Below, one piece after another: positions 22 through 30,146 of a DNA stretch of 30,591 nt (position 1 is its first letter; every line of letters starts with the position of its first letter). The position numbers and the translations under genes were made by a program. The stretch lies in NCBI RefSeq assembly GCF_000003605.2, contig NW_003109992.1, forward strand, positions 124,514-155,104, in the 5' to 3' direction. Source of the stretch: Saccoglossus kowalevskii (taxonomy: Eukaryota > Hemichordata > Enteropneusta > Harrimaniidae). The notes beneath the pieces are model-generated. The model worked only from the letters and a program-made list of their open reading frames with translations. It made no database searches and had not been told where the DNA came from.

Positions 22-3000
22 GCTGAAATGGTATTGAGAGAAAAAGTTGAAGAGATGGAAGAAAGGCATCAACAAGAGCTGCAGGATTTACAGGATGAAC
101 TAGAAGAACAAATAGAAGAATTAAAATCATTACATCAAAAACAATTAGAACAGGAAAGAACAGCAGCCCAAGCTGCTCAAGGTGAGGACAGCGACCTTTA
201 TCATTGAAATTCCGAATACTGTAGAAACCTTACTTACAATGGCATACAATTAAATAGCAACTCTTAATGAATAGGAATACATTAGGCTGTATTGTTTTTT
301 TATAGCTCGTTTGAAAGGAGAGATTGAGTTTTTACAAGGGGCTTTTGAAGCATATAAAAGTAACGTTGCTGCTGACTTGGACGAAAAATGGTCTAAAAAA
401 GAAAGTGATATGCAAATGAAATTTCGAGAAGAATTGGAAGAAGCATTGCAAGAGCAGAGTAAGTTCTGAAAGAATTCAGCATTAAAATATTTAACCACAC
501 AGATGTTTTATTGCTTTAATGTTACTAGTCAGATAATAAACATGTCTAACTCTGGTTAACTGTACATTTATCAATAGTGGATTTTCAAAAATGTTTGTTT
601 AATCGTATTTAATATTTGTTTCCAGGGCAACGAATGATGGAAGAGAGGCAGAAAGAAAAGAAAGCTATGAGTCGTGAATTTCAAAGACAATTAGCCGTAG
701 TAACTCAGGATCATAAACGAGAAATGGATGTGAGTGATTACAGTCATATTAGTCTGGTTTAGATGATAAAGTGTAATTTTATATTCTGTATAATGATTGG
801 TTTAAGCAGCATTTCATTTTATTCATATCACACTCACATAATGTTTGCAACAGTGTAAACACCAGTGTTCCCTCTAAGCCATTTTGACTGATGCATTTTG
901 ATTCAAAATAATGAACCAGAATTAGTGATTTTTGACACATATTTGATGCAATCAAAAATTTACTTTCTCTGAAAAAAAATTTCGTAAAATAATTGATATG
1001 ATTGATTTAATTATACATAAATGACACCAGATGCCACCTAGAGTCTTCTAAAAATTACTAACTAACTATTGACAAATAAAACATGGAAGGTTGCTAAGCA
1101 ATGTGTATGTCTGCTATGCATCACTTAATTTTTTCACCACCAGACTTTCAGGTCCAAATTTTTCTGCACTTTTTTCTTATAATTCTTTAATATTTCTGGA
1201 AGTGAATCCTAATTTTGGAGCCAACAGACAAAATTTAAGTTAATTTTCAGTTTTTACTAAAAAAAATTGGCTATTTTTGTCCCAAGCTTCTGAAGGAAAG
1301 TGCAAACTATAAACAGAACTATTTTGTGAATAAAAAGAGTTAACTGGTGTTGAAAAGATTAAGTCACTCAAATTTCTCTTTTTCTTTTTTAACACAAGGA
1401 AATCATAATCCACTGTATGTTAGAGGGCATACTTGTTAGCACTGAAAGAAAAACATGCAAAATCTTTTCAAATTGAACATAATTTGCTGATACAGAGCTT
1501 TAAAAATGTATTTTTATGTTACAAATGTTGTATTTAAAAACAGCTTCTATGATTTGCACATCAGTCATTGAATATCAACTAATTTGCATATCACCAATGA
1601 AAATACCTGTTTGTCAGGAATTGTCATAAATATTAAATTTTTATTCTTAATCCACAAATGGTATCAAGTGGAATATCTGCATATCTGCATATCAGTTGTG
1701 GAAATACAGATTTCATTATATGTGCAATAATGTCTATGATTATGAGGTTACCGGTATTACAAGGATACTTCAAAAGTATGCACGAGGACAGTACAGCGAG
1801 AGTATCGACTAATGCACAGCTTGTCTCAAAGAATTGCATATAACTGGAATAAGTTTCCTTTGTAGATATTACACAGAAAGTTTTCTACTGCGGCAGTTGA
1901 TATGGAAAACATGAAAAAAGCACTCGATCAGTTATCCAATGTGCAGGAACTATTGAATAAGAAAACTGAACAGTTGGACACAGCGAATGCAGAATTAAAA
2001 AAGACAAAACTTGAACTCCAGGACACTGTAAGTCAAAAGTTAGAAACTTAATAGGATTCTTTTTAATTGCTCATCAAAAAATAATCATCCGTTTTTTGTT
2101 TACTTTTCATTTGTGACATTTCACATTACCAAAGGCATACAACAAACTGCATGCTCCATATTTGTAAATAAATAAATAAATGCTATCGATAAAGAGCCCA
2201 TTGCCTGAAATGTCTAGCTATTTTTAATAGTTACTTAGGACATCGGTTACCAACTATTATCTACTATATATATGTTCTGTTCAATGCACATTTACACCAG
2301 TTGTGCATATGAACCAGTAATGCTTGGTTTGATTGAAGAAATATTTGTTAAGAACACCATTATGTAATCATGGCTATTTCACTTCTTACAGAGAATTCGT
2401 CTTGTCGGCTTTGAAGAACATTTTCTTGACAAAGTACAAGAAGTTGATGATAAATACAAACAAAGAATGCACGGTCTAATGACAGAAAATACCGATCTCA
2501 GGTAAAAACTCTCAGATTTATTTTGCCTACATAATGATGAGTTTCATCTTGGCTGCTAGCCTGCCACATTTGTAAGCTTCACATTTTGTAGTTACCATAT
2601 AAGGAACTAATTACCATATATTCATATGTCTGCTCATAACAAAATTTTCCAAATATAAACATATTCAATCACATGACTACAAATTTGTCCAAATATGGGT
2701 ATGGTGCATAAAAACTTTGTATTCCCAGTCCAGATGCTGTTCCGGAATCTATGGATTGTCGCCTTATGTGTTTGTGTTTGTCCACCTCTATCCCAGCATA
2801 CATCTTGAGATACATATGCACGCCTGTTCATTTCACGATCTGATTTATGATGGCAAACATTTTTATGCTTAAAATTTATTAAAATCAAGCATTTCTGCTA
2901 TTCCGGAGCTGGATCTTGGTCGTGTATGAATGAATTTCCTTCAAACTTGGTACATACATTGAACATCTTGAGACCTTTATGCAGATTATTTTGTTTTTCT

Positions 3001-5855
3001 GATCACATTCAAAATGGCCAAATGCAAATGCTATTCTAGACCAATGTCTCTGACATACATCAACAGATTACAAATCAAACTTTACAGCAACATTATACAA
3101 AATGCACATCGGTAAATTTGAATCATGTTATGAGTCAAAATAGCTATCTCATTTCTGTTTACTATTTAACTAATGTTTTTATCAATTTCATGACAGGAGG
3201 CGATATATGCTGAAATGTGATGAATTATTTAGTGAGAAATCAAACCATGAAATTGATAGAGTTGAGAAACTGAGCAATGCTAAGGAAACAATGCAGGTAA
3301 GATTGGCTTAATCTTATTATGCTGAAACTGTTTCTGCTTAGTATTACAACAGTTATGAGAGAATCTTCATATTGTTTGTGTAACTTTTTCCTTTCTACAT
3401 ATTCTGTATATTAGCACCTTTCTAACAAATTTAAAAGTGTTGTGTTTCTACTTAGTGCATGGTGCTAATACTAATGTCAATAAACCCTGAAGCTGATTTG
3501 ATTTTCGGTTGCCAAGGGGTTTGTTTTGTTTAAAACTACTTGAATCTACATAAACCGATAAATTTTATAAAATTTCAACAAATACTGGGTTAAGATTTAT
3601 TAAAATGGAAAACACAAGATGAATACACATGATGCATACTTATCTATGTGGTGTTTCCTGGGAATGAACATGGCCTTCTGGGATACCATCAGTTGTGATG
3701 TATTGTGGGATACCGTGGTTCATTATCTGATTTTCTCATTGTTATTTGAATTTTATTAACCCTAACTTTCAAACTTCTGCTTCTTTATTACTAACTGTAT
3801 AATACTTATTTCCATTCGCTCTCATTTTTCGACCTAGTCGATATTATCAAAATACTGGTAAGTAATCTTCAACCTCCTATGCAGAATTTCTTCAACTAAC
3901 CTCTCCCTTTGTGAACACTGAGGGCAAACTCACATCTAGACTTCAAGGTCATTCATTAATATTATTTACTGAGCATTTTTATCAACTATTTAAAACCTCA
4001 GGTCATTAACATTTTCAGAGAAATAATTCACCTCTGATAGTGACAAATTGCATAAATTGGTGTAAGAAACACTGTTTACAGCATCAATATCATATTGATT
4101 TGTTATAAAACATTAATCAGAAATAAATTGTTTTAGAGATTTATTTTAATTTAATGGCTACTGCACAACCAAGCATAGTTATTTTAACGATATCGCCACA
4201 TTAAGCTGGTGTACAAACGATATTCAAATACATGTAAATGTGATTAATTTATAAATATTTATTTTATGGTGATGATTTTGAATACTGCTTAAAACTAATT
4301 GAAGAGACAACTAGTTTTTTAGTACAAATGGGAAAAAAATACCAAACTTTCACAGCGATCTGTTTGGATGAAATTAAGCCAACTGCTCATATAATTCAGC
4401 CAAATTCATGCAATTTTTGTGTGGAAAAATCTCTTCGTACACCTAATTACAAGAAGATCATAGAACACTTTCCCAGGATTATTTGAAACCAAAATTGTCA
4501 TCCAACTCAGGAGCCAATCAGGAACGGCCTTACAGTTAGATGATGATTTAGGTTTCTAAATACCCTCTGAAAGTAAACCCAGGGGTCCCACCCATATAGT
4601 AAATATTGATAGAATAATCAAATTTATTTTATTATCAATTGTACGCCATCTGACTGGAAATTGCTTACACCCATTTATGTCATTTTGATTGTTCTAAAAG
4701 CAATTTGTTGCTAGAGGAATACTGGAAAAGCGTTTTGTCATTTAGTTTAAGCACTTAAATATTCACTGTAGTTTATGCACCAAAGTTCGTTACCATAATC
4801 GCCCATCTCAGGAAATAAGCTGTTCTGATCATTTGTACAGTTACAGCTGGCACTGAAAAGAGATTCCTTTTTAATGAGTCAATTTTTAATGATCATTTCA
4901 CCTTGAAGTTGTATTGTTGACAACATTTTGTTTGATATCTTTTACAAGTCAAGTAATGTGCATTATGTATTAAATCTAAGGATAGTTTTAATAACATTTT
5001 TCCTTTCTTATTCCAATAATAATTTATTCAGAGAATTACATAAGCTTACTTTAAAGCTTGAAATGTGCACTTTTTTCTGTGTCAATTGTTTTTTGTATAG
5101 ATGTTTGATTGTTTCATTCTTTTTAGTGATTGTTACATATTTGTCTTTTTTATTTGATGTTGTATTTTGTTGTTAGAATTTTATGGATCCTGTTAATGGT
5201 ACTGGTTCTCATGGAATATCAAGCTAAAGGAAAAAAAAAAAAAAATTCAAAACAGCAATACATGTCAAGATTTGTTGTCATGATGACAATAATAACTTAG
5301 TCGAATAAACGGTGAAATATACCCGGTTTCAGTCTAACTAAATTTTGCCATCAATACAACTTAAGTCAAATTGAGAAATGACAGTTTTAGGAACAAACAT
5401 CTTTATTCAACACAAAAGTTTTCTATATACAGCTGTTTGAGGGCACTGCACACAGCTGCTGGAGAACCATTTCAGGTCTGTTGTTTTAATTCATGTACAT
5501 TGTGTTTTTCTTTCAGATGCTTATACATGTACGTAACAGGACAAATGTCAGTATGGCATGCTCTGATGCAGCACTAGACGATAAACCCAAAGTACCAAAA
5601 ATGAGGCCATCAAGTGCTCCTGTGACTCAAAGGGAAGAAAAGAATGCCAAACTGAGTGCTGGAGAAACGGACCATATAACGTGGCCGAAACAAAGTTATG
5701 ACAAACACCATGATAAACTGTTGCCTGGGAGACCGTTATCTCGACCACATACGTCCCACAGTTACCATACACCACCCCCAAAAGCAGAAACAAGAAAAGC
5801 AATATCTCTTCTTGATTCATTTGGGTACGGATCCATGCAGTCAATGCAAGAGTAG
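22..5855 (+). CDS. FLACC1: FLACC1-like (ALS2CR12-like) coiled-coil protein, C-terminal part, seven exons
   Basis: Partial gene; its 5' exons lie left of the window. Exons: 22-181, 306-458, 626-729, 1866-2027, 2392-2501, 3197-3296, 5517-5855. All have AG acceptors and GT donors, and the phases fit (0,1,1,0,0,2,0 on entry), giving 375 residues to a TAG stop. Seen: long heptad-like coiled coil rich in E, K and Q through the first six exons, then a basic, proline/serine-rich, non-coiled tail of about 110 residues. Family match: the segments ADLDEKWSKKESDM and VQEVDDKYKQRM, followed by MTENTDLRRRYMLKCDELF, line up in order with human FLACC1 (YDEMEEKWSKQK, then EEKYKHTIQILTEEN with IISKNEEI). Human FLACC1 is associated with the fibrous sheath of sperm flagella, so a flagellar or ciliary role is inferred. 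The tail has no counterpart I recall in human FLACC1. Another coiled-coil family is possible, but the two-block match argues for orthology. Confidence 0.75.
730..1865 (+). other. Intron of FLACC1-like gene
   Basis: Bounded by the donor after GAT at 729 (GTGAGT) and the acceptor TTTGTAG at 1859-1865. AT-rich and nearly CpG-free until about 1,740. Nothing coding is visible; the short overlapping ORFs at 1,633-1,843 have no domain character. Confidence 0.7.
2502..3196 (+). other. Intron of FLACC1-like gene
   Basis: Lies between donor AG|GTAAAA and acceptor GACAG. I see no gene or repeat in it. The preceding intron (2,028-2,391) carries a short AAAT microsatellite near 2,167. Confidence 0.7.
3297..5516 (+). 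other. Large intron before the last exon of the FLACC1-like gene
   Basis: Lies between CAG|GTAAGA at 3,296 and TTTCTTTCAG at 5,516. AT-rich and mostly unique-looking. A run of 15 A residues occurs at 5,231-5,245 and may be the tail of an old retroposed insertion, but no SINE body or target duplication could be defined. No exon is supportable inside. Confidence 0.65.
5231..5245 (+). repeat. A15 homopolymer
   Basis: Uninterrupted run of 15 A inside the last FLACC1-like intron. It could be a simple repeat or a retroposon tail. No matching 5' boundary was recognised. Confidence 0.6.
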
Positions 5856-25969: not shown

Positions 25970-28900
25970 TCATCGTGTCAATGATAACCATTTGAAGTCT
26001 TGTCTATCAATTTTTTTGAGGACGTCTTCCAACTTATTCGCCATGCCGTTCAGCGTGACTCTCTCAAAATGAGACCGTGAAAACATATTGTAATTTGGAA
26101 GAAAAAAATGACACAAATTTGCACCGCGAAGACTTTCGATAAAGAATTGTAATAAATCTACAAGCCTCTGTTCCAGAAACTGATCACTCCATTGCTTATC
26201 GTTAGGATACATCACGCAGCAATGTAAAAACACAGTTTTTAGTTGAAATGAACGGAGACTGGCAAAAATACGTTTGTGCCGTTCTTTTAAATTAGTCAGA
26301 ATATATTTGAAGATTTTGTAGCAGTTCTTACGAACGGTAGGTGCGTATGTTCTTGTGTCTGCACGAAGCAGTAGCTCCTTTTCTACCGATGAAAAAGACA
26401 AACGCCAATGTTTATCATCACCTGGTTCTAATCCCACTTCTGAAAACAAGCAAAATATAATAAAACGTAATAGTCAATAGTAGTAAATCAGACGGTCCTA
26501 GTAGCATATTGTCTATTTATAATGATATATACTGAATGGATTCACATCCACACTCCCGATGTTTACATGGAGTCACGTTTCACCCTGAAATTGATGCTTC
26601 TTAAGGGCTACAGGTGCAAATGAAAATGTATAAATATAACTTTAAATAGCTGACACAATTTAAAACGAAATAAATCTAAATAAAACGCCTCTGAAGGTGT
26701 GACAACGAATACTAAAACAAAGAAAACTCCCGCGAAAACTCTTCTTTGTGAGATGCCCAATTGTGTAAAATTGTATGCCACAGGTGTAGACGCGTCTTTA
26801 TTTATAGTAGCTGATAGGTGGCGCTGTACCGTATGATGCGCCCTCATTGTCGAATATTGATAGTTTGTGGTGTAAGTGGCCATTTTTATATATATACATA
26901 GTATTACTAGTCCGGGGCTGGTCGTCTCGTTTGTTTGTTTTGATTGTGCCTATAAATTGTATGTCGTTCAGAATGTGGCTGGTGCTATTGAGATGTGTGG
27001 CTACTGATGTGTCTTGAATCAGTCGTACTGTAGAAAGATGATTAAGTATGTTACATTTCTGGTGGTGCATCTTATCACGTGATCTTTTATTGTGTATGTA
27101 TGGATATTAAGAGTTCTCCGAAAACTGTTAGTCTATGGGTTATCAGGAGGACTCGCAATTAAGTAAAACTAGTTCGAGGAATGTGCATTTCAATTAGCTG
27201 TAAAATAAAACGTCTCGGATGTTCTTACTGCGAATGTGTTAAATATTAGGGGTTTTGGGTTCATTATGGTGTCCGTAATTAATTCTATTTAGGTTATGAC
27301 TAGCCAGGCAGTTCACCTAGATGAATGTACCGCCACACCGGTTTGAAAAAATGCGGCAAATCATGATCCTCGTGGGGAAATCATATGGAATACTTGTTTT
27401 TAATGGGAATGAATGGGAAGACGCAAAATGAAAATATTGATTGTAAATGTGGTTTTCTATTACTTTTTATTACTATTCTTTATCAATGTTACCTATGAAT
27501 CAATATGAACTTTGACATCAAGAAATGACGAGTCAGTGTTTCACGGTGAATTTGATGGTCTCGAGAGATCGTTTGATGAAATCATCATGATGCAATTTGT
27601 TAATACATATTTATTAAATTAAATGTAATTATAATGAATATAAATAGTACAAAGATGAATAATTAAAAGCAGTGAATCGTGCACGTAATAATATTCATGT
27701 CTTGAGCATGTCCATGAGTATATTGGCATAACTCGGACCATTTTTTGTCACATTAGAGTGCAAATATTTGTAAATAGTTATTGTTATTAAGAATGAGTGT
27801 TAGGAAATTGATAATGGTGGAGATGGGTGGAATTTAAACCTGTTCTTTAATAGATACGTTGCTGTACAGGGCCGTTACACCAAGTGTTACCATGTAACTC
27901 CCTTGAGATACCTTCCCCTAGGTATTGCAAACAATGGATCGAATCTTTGAGGCTTTTGTGCTATAACCAAGAATTGGAAAAATGATCCACAAATTCAGTG
28001 ATTTTTTAGGTGCAAATCAGAAAGTTGTTATTTAGTAATTCCCCCCCCCGAATTACTTAACATAACATGTCTAAAAGTTTGTTGGCCTACGAAAAGTTAA
28101 ATTCAGTATCCATAACAATGACTGCTGAATCTCGTCAACGCTTAGAGCGGACAATCGAATACAAATATCGCCCACTTTTAAAACGTCTTGGGTCCAGAGT
28201 TTTACAAAGCGACAACATATACAGCATCTCACAGTACACACCTGTCAAGTAGTGACTTTATAGATAGTATTTTGCAGGACTTTTTCGACTTTTATAAAAC
28301 GACTAGAAACAAAATGGCAGAATGTATGACGTACTCTGACAAGGTCACGTGAAATAGTTTACCGTACCTCTTATTGATGTTTTTGCCACGGCATGTACGA
28401 TAATATTCTTTAGGTCCATCTCTTCTCTCTTTTTAAGCCATGGTCGTGCAGTCCATTCTTGCGTCCCATCCAGGTCACTAAATCTGTCTAGTTCGACTGC
28501 CAACACCAAATCTATTGAATATGTTTTACTGTTTCTGGAGTTAGTCAGAGATAACGTGATGGCTGGACATTCATCGGACGTCACAACATTGATAGATTTG
28601 TCTGAAAATAAAATTTCTTTTTATTCAAATTGTTACAATAATATACTAGTATCATCTGTTATAATCTCAAGTTGATCTTACAATAGCAGATAATTACCAT
28701 GGTGTTAACCATACCTGAATGTTTACATCGTTTGTATTCTGTTACGGCCTTTTCAACAATTTCAGTCTGGAAATAGTCTCGCATGCGTCTTGGGGATAGG
28801 TGGCCACCTTTTGTGGTGAATTCACTCCATGTTCCTTTTGGCACATTCAGTTTTACTAGTCCCATGTATGGTCTCAAAAGTTCAGTGAACTCCAAATCTG

Positions 28901-30146
28901 GTACATTGACGACGAACATGACGTCAACTTCGTCTGATTTCCCAACCTGGAATTTAAAGCTAGATATTAAAGAGATTGTTACAATTAAACTCATCTGTAT
29001 TATAACATAGGCCGAGGGTCTATGAATATAATAGCTAGCGAGCAGCGGGATTAATAATATAAACTTTTTAATTACAGCGCCCTCTAGAGACAAATCTTTT
29101 CCGTGACGTACGCAGGTAAGAGGAAAGCCTGTGTTTACTGTGACGCTTTTGTAGAAGATGAATGTATATATTTTCACGATTCTACTGAATCTCTACCGTG
29201 ACGTCATAAAAGCGCACCGTAGCTATCGACAGTAATGAAAAGAATTTGTGTGAAGACTTCAATACATATTAGGTGCCATCAGTTGCCGAAAGAGGACGTG
29301 GTTTGCGACGATGTTCAAGACTGCCGTTGAGTAATTTTGATTGAAAAAATGTTGATAAAAAATAAGTGAGATAAAAAACAATTTAATCTTGACCTTAAGT
29401 TTTTCGTAGTGACTGCCAGCTGGTAATTTCTTCATGGATGACAACAATGAGTCATTCTTTGCATACTTGAGGACTAAGTCTATTACAGGGTTCATCTCGC
29501 GGACTGCAATGCTTGTATCGTCTCTGCAAATTTTAACATGCTCGTTCAAAAACTGTTTCAAAGAATTTATTTGATTATAATCCTGGCGCCCTGGATTAGT
29601 CGTTGATTTTGTTGTTTTAGGTTTACTACCCTGCTCGGTCCGGACCGGCTTATCTCGAGTGGTAGAACTTGGGCGCCCACTTTTTCTAGCGATTTTTACA
29701 CCTGTCTCCGATGCCCTTCTTTGACCGGACGATGTGAATTTAGAGCCTTCGCCTCCATGTTTCGGCGAATCGCTCCGGGGATGGGACCATTGCCCTCCAA
29801 ACGCAGACGATGGTACGTTTTTCTTTAGAGCTGCTATTGTCCCACCTTTTCTCTTCTGCAAGTCAGAGTCTTTTAGGACGCTGGGTGATGAACTTGTTGA
29901 CGCTGGACGCATATCAGGCGAACGTTGCGAACGAGCTTCCTCGCGTGACTGGTTACGCGGGATTTGATGTGTCCTTGTCTTTTGTTTAGTTGAGGCACCA
30001 TCGATCCACATCGTTGATGGTAATACCGGTATGTTCAATTCAACCATTTTTAATTGAAGAGACGATTTCCCAGATATTTCACGCGATCCTTTGATCTTAC
30101 CATGGCCTGGTGCTTCCCTTTCCGGTGCTGTTTGTTTACCTGACAT
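25970..30146 (-). CDS. CGAS: cGAS-like receptor (Mab-21 family nucleotidyltransferase), complete, four exons
   Basis: Exons 30,146-29,394, 28,946-28,715, 28,601-28,368 and 26,439-25,970 join in frame (phases 0, 1, 1) to 562 residues; human cGAS has 522. cGAS-like receptors join nucleotides into cyclic dinucleotides that activate STING after nucleic-acid binding. Seen: residues 1 to about 190 are low-complexity, basic and S/R/K/P-rich. A spine-helix stretch VKICRDDTSIA (204-214) follows, then AGS (243-245), DEVDVMF with E257 and D259, and SIDLVLAVEL with D359. These match human G212-S213, E225, D227 and D319. WRLSFSSVEKELL (418-430) matches the human lobe bridge. The zinc-thumb loop is reduced to LRADTRTYAPTV (431-442), with no His/Cys ligands. 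RKNCYKIFKY (443-452) keeps lysines equivalent to K407 and K411. The base-stacking Tyr436 is replaced by F471. Donor one, AAG|GTCAAG, is weak, but the joined protein aligns with human cGAS without gaps there. The ligand and product are not known. Confidence 0.93.
28027..28066. repeat. Hairpin around a C9 run
   Basis: GTTATTTAGTAATT, nine C, then GAATTACTTAACATAAC. The arms pair over about fifteen positions with a small bulge. It ends directly before an ATG on the plus strand. Confidence 0.5.
28067..28252 (+). CDS. Small intronic ORF, 61 codons, doubtful
   Basis: Antisense to the cGAS-like transcript within its intron 3. It encodes a basic 61-residue peptide beginning MSKSLLAYEKLNSVS and holding ESRQRLERTIEYKYRP, with no signal peptide or known motif. 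Composition is protein-like, but length alone is weak evidence. It may be a remnant of a retrocopy or a chance ORF. Confidence 0.15.
   Translation: MSKSLLAYEKLNSVSITMTAESRQRLERTIEYKYRPLLKRLGSRVLQSDNIYSISQYTPVK
28947..29393 (-). other. Intron 1 (coding) of the cGAS-like gene
   Basis: 447 bases between AAG|GTCAAG and AATTCCAG|GTTGGG. Holds TGACGTCA at 29,199 and a CTCTAGAGGGCGCTG motif on the minus strand near 29,084-29,098, resembling a CTCF core. The reading frame stays open through part of both ends, which makes the flanking ORFs look longer than the exons. Confidence 0.75.

Follow-up and report, generated by a model that had tools for sequence, protein, structure and literature searches.

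Vertebrate cGAS is described, in the portions of the literature drawn on here, with a long basic N-terminal region, which precedes a fold carrying a catalytic triad, a Gly-Ser activation loop and a zinc thumb. Its invertebrate relatives, the cGAS-like receptors (cGLRs), are treated in several of the sources consulted (PMC9980059, PMC8410604, PMC8218723, PMC7293265, PMC13043383, PMC8204762, PMC12424679, PMC2034537 and PMC2697986). In the sections of Li 2023 cited here, cGLRs were searched for with the motif h[QT]GS, [DE]h[DE]h, h[DE]h, two dsDNA-activated cGLRs are described from oyster, and the dsDNA-sensing cGLRs map near human cGAS. Nucleic-acid-sensing cGLRs have a pI above 8.5 in the same sections, and oyster cGLR1 is activated by dsDNA and makes 2′3′-cUA. 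In the excerpt of Slavik 2021 used here, the Zn-ribbon is an insertion of the human protein that is absent from other cGLRs, and two reviews describe invertebrate cGLRs without the zinc ribbon.

In the hemichordate Saccoglossus kowalevskii, the window (the whole stretch of DNA that was analysed, 30,591 nucleotides) contains at 30146-25970, on the minus strand, an intact-looking gene model of four exons encoding 562 aa. The three introns are all GT-AG, with phases 0, 1 and 1, and an in-frame stop stands directly 5′ of the ATG. The parts of the gene, read from the sequence, are the following:

29394-30146, minus strand: exon 1, coding for the basic N-terminal region and the spine helix, ending in ...GSHYEKLK, with the donor AAG/GTCAAG (the slash marks the exon end)
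29574-30146, minus strand: N-terminal region, residues 1-191, pI 10.9, net charge +21
29523-29534, minus strand: codons K205 to R208, equivalent to mouse R158 and R161 (human K173 and R176 according to the preliminary description)
29412-29417, minus strand: Gly-Ser of the activation loop, G244 and S245, placed by alignment to mouse cGAS
28715-28946, minus strand: exon 2, with the codons of the catalytic residues E257 and D259 (28923-28931)
28368-28601, minus strand: exon 3, with the codon of the catalytic residue D359 (28510-28512)
25970-26439, minus strand: exon 4, coding for the C-terminal lobe, with the stop codon
26333-26368, minus strand: 12-residue loop LRADTRTYAPTV (residues 431-442) where vertebrate cGAS has its zinc thumb, His and Cys absent
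26315-26329, minus strand: codons K444 to K448, equivalent to mouse K395 and K399

Scans of the window with Rfam at the gathering threshold and for tRNAs gave no matches. Several open stretches on the plus strand at 275-5855 are coiled-coil-like and may be exons of another gene; Pfam searches with five of them returned nothing above the cut-off.

The protein encoded by the gene (hereafter the window protein, or A) matches both Mab-21 (PF03281, 3.5e-23, 83.1 bits) and Mab-21_C (PF20266, 2.2e-19, 69.9 bits) above the Pfam cut-off. A sequence search of the PDB yielded 44 distinct sequences at E<=1, headed by vertebrate cGAS (E 9.8e-37, 130 bits) and followed by entries named ‘cGAS-like receptor 1’ (8gjy, 6.3e-30, 108 bits; 8gjw, 5.5e-14), after which comes MAB21L1 (E 4.9e-13). 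The result table gives molecule names only, and we take the cGAS chains to be those of human, mouse and pig. The insect dsRNA-sensing cGLRs match the window protein far more weakly (E 6.6e-6 for 7lt2, presumably the Tribolium cGLR). Gene model, Pfam and PDB matches bear out the preliminary description of a cGAS-like receptor at 25970-30146. Its statement that the protein aligns closely with cGAS is right in that the homology is far beyond chance, but identity to mouse cGAS is only about 31% (30.9% over 353 columns with 7bum, taken as carrying full-length numbering for the mouse residues given here). A single-sequence fold of exon 4 alone was poor (mean pLDDT 50.4), and the PDB matches of this model, 61 at E<=10 and none at E<=0.001 with human cGAS best at E 0.0098, are given no weight here.

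Relatives were sought in the whole genome (572,110,611 bases in 4,830 contigs), and the 13 of 18 rows that reach at least 220 residues were used for a first tree, which was reduced to eight rows by removing five flagged as long branches. Reference sequences were few, the cGLRs of oyster, insects and cnidarians being left out of the trees. With these few references, the window protein, its closest paralogue (B) and mouse cGAS form a group with bootstrap/SH-aLRT values of 85/96 in the 13-row tree, the bootstrap of which had not settled, and of 82/84 in the 8-row tree. In AU tests on groups named after the first tree had been inspected, pairing A with member C (p-AU 0.027) or with members D/E (0.016) was rejected, and so was pairing it with MAB21L (0.020); hence, as far as so few references allow, the protein does not fall among the catalytically dead Mab21-like proteins, a placement that the preliminary description had set against its own reading. 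The window protein with mouse cGAS alone was retained (p-AU 0.46), the order within the trio with paralogue B being unsettled. Support for the grouping with mouse cGAS and B rather than with MAB21L is moderate. MAB21L proteins share the Mab-21 fold with the window protein, but in this genome the MAB21L-like gene L033 differs from it: two of the three catalytic residues are replaced by Q, and three of six site-A positions are basic. Taken together, the sequence comparisons support a cGAS-type cGLR and not a MAB21L protein. On viral contigs, 46 pattern matches included no relatives.

The triad E211, D213 and D307 of mouse cGAS corresponds to E257, D259 and D359 in the window protein and is intact, and the activation loop reads AGS. 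In the base pocket, which we take to involve mouse R364, S420, Y421 and K424, the equivalent residues are R419, S470, F471 and K474. When compared with the search motif of Li 2023, E257-V-D259 and D359 fit, and the first part fits in its GS only, which is preceded by A instead of Q or T. Because the triad, the Gly-Ser of the activation loop and the base-pocket residues R364, S420 and K424 are kept, the protein looks catalytically competent, with a product that is not readable from its sequence.

The window protein lacks the vertebrate zinc-thumb pattern H-x5-CC-x6-C. The loop, counted between two flanking blocks aligned in separate searches, has 12 residues in the window protein and 18 in the human, mouse and pig cGAS chains; with no His or Cys, it is as the preliminary description had put it, six residues shorter and devoid of metal ligands. 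An additional exon supplying the His/Cys ligands is ruled out, because the loop lies wholly within exon 4 and any insertion would have to split that exon. In 8gjy the local match leaves out the opening 11 residues of the second block; provided that these align gap-free, the loop has about 7 residues. We assume that 8gjy is the dsDNA-activated oyster cGLR1, which fits Li 2023 only in its being the cGLR1 entry nearer cGAS. On that assumption, the oyster protein is like the window protein in being a cGAS-side cGLR without a thumb, and unlike it in its even shorter loop.

In a profile alignment of 17 family members from the same genome, His/Cys is found at the three scorable ligand columns in none of the 17, the fourth ligand lying outside the profile and seven members being gapped at one or more of the three columns (F and MAB21L at two). 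A looser search with H-x(3,8)-CC-x(4,9)-C found mouse cGAS and one of the 17 members, O, in which the match is not at the thumb place. The match in O (L040, G000:C3812) is a Cys-rich stretch at residue 587, after the Mab21 region, and the thumb place is near residue 272.

The preliminary description spoke of a thumb that had been lost. Because the pattern is present at the thumb place in none of the 17 members, the loop of 8gjy is shorter still, and invertebrate cGLRs are reported to be ribbon-less (Slavik 2021 and the two reviews), a gain on the vertebrate line appears the better reading of these sequences. The mixed anatomy of the window protein, with site A kept and the thumb absent, is then the expected state outside vertebrates. 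It is very improbable that the protein is derived and that a zinc thumb of the deuterostome ancestor was truly lost. The loop of paralogue B, which is 23 residues long and includes a single His and a single Cys, could be a thumb remnant, and Cys also occurs within or close to the loop of paralogues N and J, but none of the three has the zinc pattern; in B, the His alone could match and, by eye, the remaining three ligands have no counterpart. As the ribbon is reported absent from other cGLRs in the excerpt of Slavik 2021, a loss would also need several parallel events.

K205, R208, K444 and K448, which the preliminary description had listed, are all present at these positions in the translation and the alignment. 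For the wider comparison, we relied on presumed lists of mouse positions for the site-A region (ten Lys/Arg), for site B (seven) and for the nucleosome anchors (R222 and R241). On the wider site-A list, 8 of 10 positions are basic in the window protein, the exceptions being K160, replaced by C207, and K162, replaced by D209. A narrower set (K205, R208, K227, K427, K444 and K448), picked from the ten after the alignment had been inspected, is basic at 6 of 6 positions, the other mouse Lys/Arg positions in the alignment being basic in 24 of 57 cases (Fisher p 0.009). The window protein and paralogue B are basic at all six positions, D and E at five each, C at four, MAB21L at three and J at one, the remaining members having no residues at several of the six columns. 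The set of six thus marks the cGAS-like pair best, but a single lysine, K444 for instance, has no diagnostic value.

Vertebrate cGAS shares these six chosen positions with the window protein, together with the fold family, the triad, the Gly-Ser loop and a long basic N-terminal region, and differs from it beyond the thumb in site B and in the nucleosome-anchor arginines. Only two of the seven site-B positions are basic (K335 to R387, K382 to R436), K240 has no aligned residue, and the others are changed (R222 to D268, K315 to D367, K323 to T375, R342 to N394). Neither anchor arginine is kept, R222 being replaced as above and R241 by N285. Because most site-B residues are changed, a 2:2 DNA complex of the vertebrate kind would be weakened, which counts against the reading preferred below. 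The pI is 9.2 for the core and 9.8 for the whole window protein, both above the 8.5 that Li 2023 gives for nucleic-acid-sensing cGLRs. The N-terminal region includes one weak AT-hook-like motif, RKSGRP (P 0.066 in shuffles), and its charge of +21 is unlike the reduced N terminus reported for invertebrate cGAS.

With somewhat better than even confidence, we read the window protein as a catalytically competent hemichordate cGLR of the cGAS side, activated by long double-stranded nucleic acid, with dsDNA likelier than dsRNA, in a lineage in which the thumb was never present. The sequence itself gives the gene structure, the family, the intact triad, the site-A residues and the missing thumb; the activation, ligand preference, product and downstream receptor that we infer are as follows. 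The duplex would lie along the spine-helix groove on site A (the six residues of the narrower set) and would order the Gly-Ser activation loop, whereupon E257, D259 and D359 would link two nucleotides to form a cyclic dinucleotide. Additional affinity would probably come from the basic N-terminal region, and the dinucleotide would then act through STING; the STING profile PF15009 gave no match, nor did it match in any control. The zinc thumb would have arisen as an insertion in the vertebrate lineage. We favour dsDNA over dsRNA because the protein groups on the cGAS side, the part of the tree to which Li 2023 assigns its two dsDNA sensors. Against this, Nematostella cGAS is reported to be unresponsive to dsDNA, and an oyster cGAS is reported to bind both dsDNA and dsRNA, for which its authors credit predicted zinc fingers.

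It is unlikely, if far from negligible, that the protein senses dsRNA, or both ligands, by holding an A-form duplex in the same groove, as in the thumb-less cGLRs of Tribolium and Drosophila, which are described as having a basic groove and no zinc ribbon. The missing thumb fits dsRNA sensing, and Slavik 2021 includes a thumb-less insect cGLR that is activated by dsRNA and resembles human cGAS in its basic groove residues. Moreover, the sections of Li 2023 count seven dsRNA-activated cGLRs against two activated by dsDNA, and the dual binding by oyster cGAS points the same way; however, Li 2023 puts the dsRNA sensors on other branches than the cGAS side, where the window protein lies. The preliminary description called the lysines DNA-contact residues, and that they argue for DNA is only partly supported. 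The basic residues of site A are indeed intact, but they fit dsRNA-sensing cGLRs too, and three to five of the six positions are basic even in MAB21L, C, D and E. The question of the ligand, as the preliminary description raised it, is not a new one, given Li 2023 and the oyster cGAS.

An enzyme that is self-active, or that responds to an activator other than nucleic acid, seems improbable. Six enzymes in the cited sections of Li 2023 are active without added ligand, one of them mapping near cGAS, but some, though not all, of these six are described as acidic, and the window protein has a fully basic narrow site A and a core pI of 9.2.

Paralogue B (L026:1890-6205, G000:C1730) encodes 758 aa in four exons, with intron phases as in the window gene. 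Its introns 1 and 3 have GC donors instead of GT (AAG/GCAAGT and CAG/GCAAGT). The N-terminal region of B, 375 aa long, contains six AT-hook-type GRP cores according to what we take to be the AT-hook consensus, five of them GRP[RK][RK], a number reached in 0 of 5000 shuffles; two of the six are inside an exact internal repeat of 88 aa, so that these two are not independent. Pfam did not report an AT-hook family in B, and a literature search found nothing joining AT-hook with cGAS and Mab21 or with cGAS-like. We offer tentatively, as a doubtful extension of the preferred reading, that DNA sensing in the hemichordate cGAS clade may do without the thumb, the site-B contacts and the nucleosome-anchor arginines, with the tails (basic in A, with six AT-hook-type motifs in B) gripping DNA instead. 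If so, A and B would be thumb-less DNA sensors held off self-DNA otherwise than vertebrate cGAS.

The window protein is a useful new member of the cGLR family and not a surprise, ordinary-looking but well placed. Hemichordates being the sister lineage of echinoderms, a cGAS-side enzyme of theirs helps to date the zinc thumb, and in it nature has separated site A from the thumb, site B and nucleosome anchor in a way that can be tested. Since canonical cGAS and STING are, according to one paper, missing from sea urchins, the hemichordate copy is well suited to asking what a pre-vertebrate cGAS bound. Among the matches listed in literature searches for Saccoglossus with cGAS and with STING, none was on a hemichordate cGAS by its title or the start of its abstract.

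Elsewhere in the genome, L029 and L030 (G000:C4195) hold a cluster of three more Mab21/cGLR-like genes, two of them near-identical and with an E/D/D triad; one of these two may be broken, as the matches to it include a stop. L028 (G000:C1214) is a copy of the L027 gene and, because it has in-frame stops, probably a pseudogene.

The mitochondrial contig (G000:C4830, with L053 and L054; 17,037 bases) has COX1, with seven TGA codons inside it, on the minus strand and most other protein genes on the opposite one, and nad5 adjoins cob; COX1 was identified with PF00115 and the other genes were named by eye. In COX1, COB and COX2, ATA codons occur where Ile is conserved and AAA codons where Lys is conserved, the conserved positions being those we presume for the three proteins. 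On these codon readings and the gene order, a hemichordate is the most likely host; Xenoturbella and lancelet were rejected on ATA as Ile and on nad5 adjoining cob, and an echinoderm on AAA as Lys. The parts of Bourlat 2009 cited here describe the nd5-cob adjacency as common to hemichordates and Xenoturbella, ATA as Ile in echinoderms and hemichordates, and AAA as Lys in Saccoglossus.
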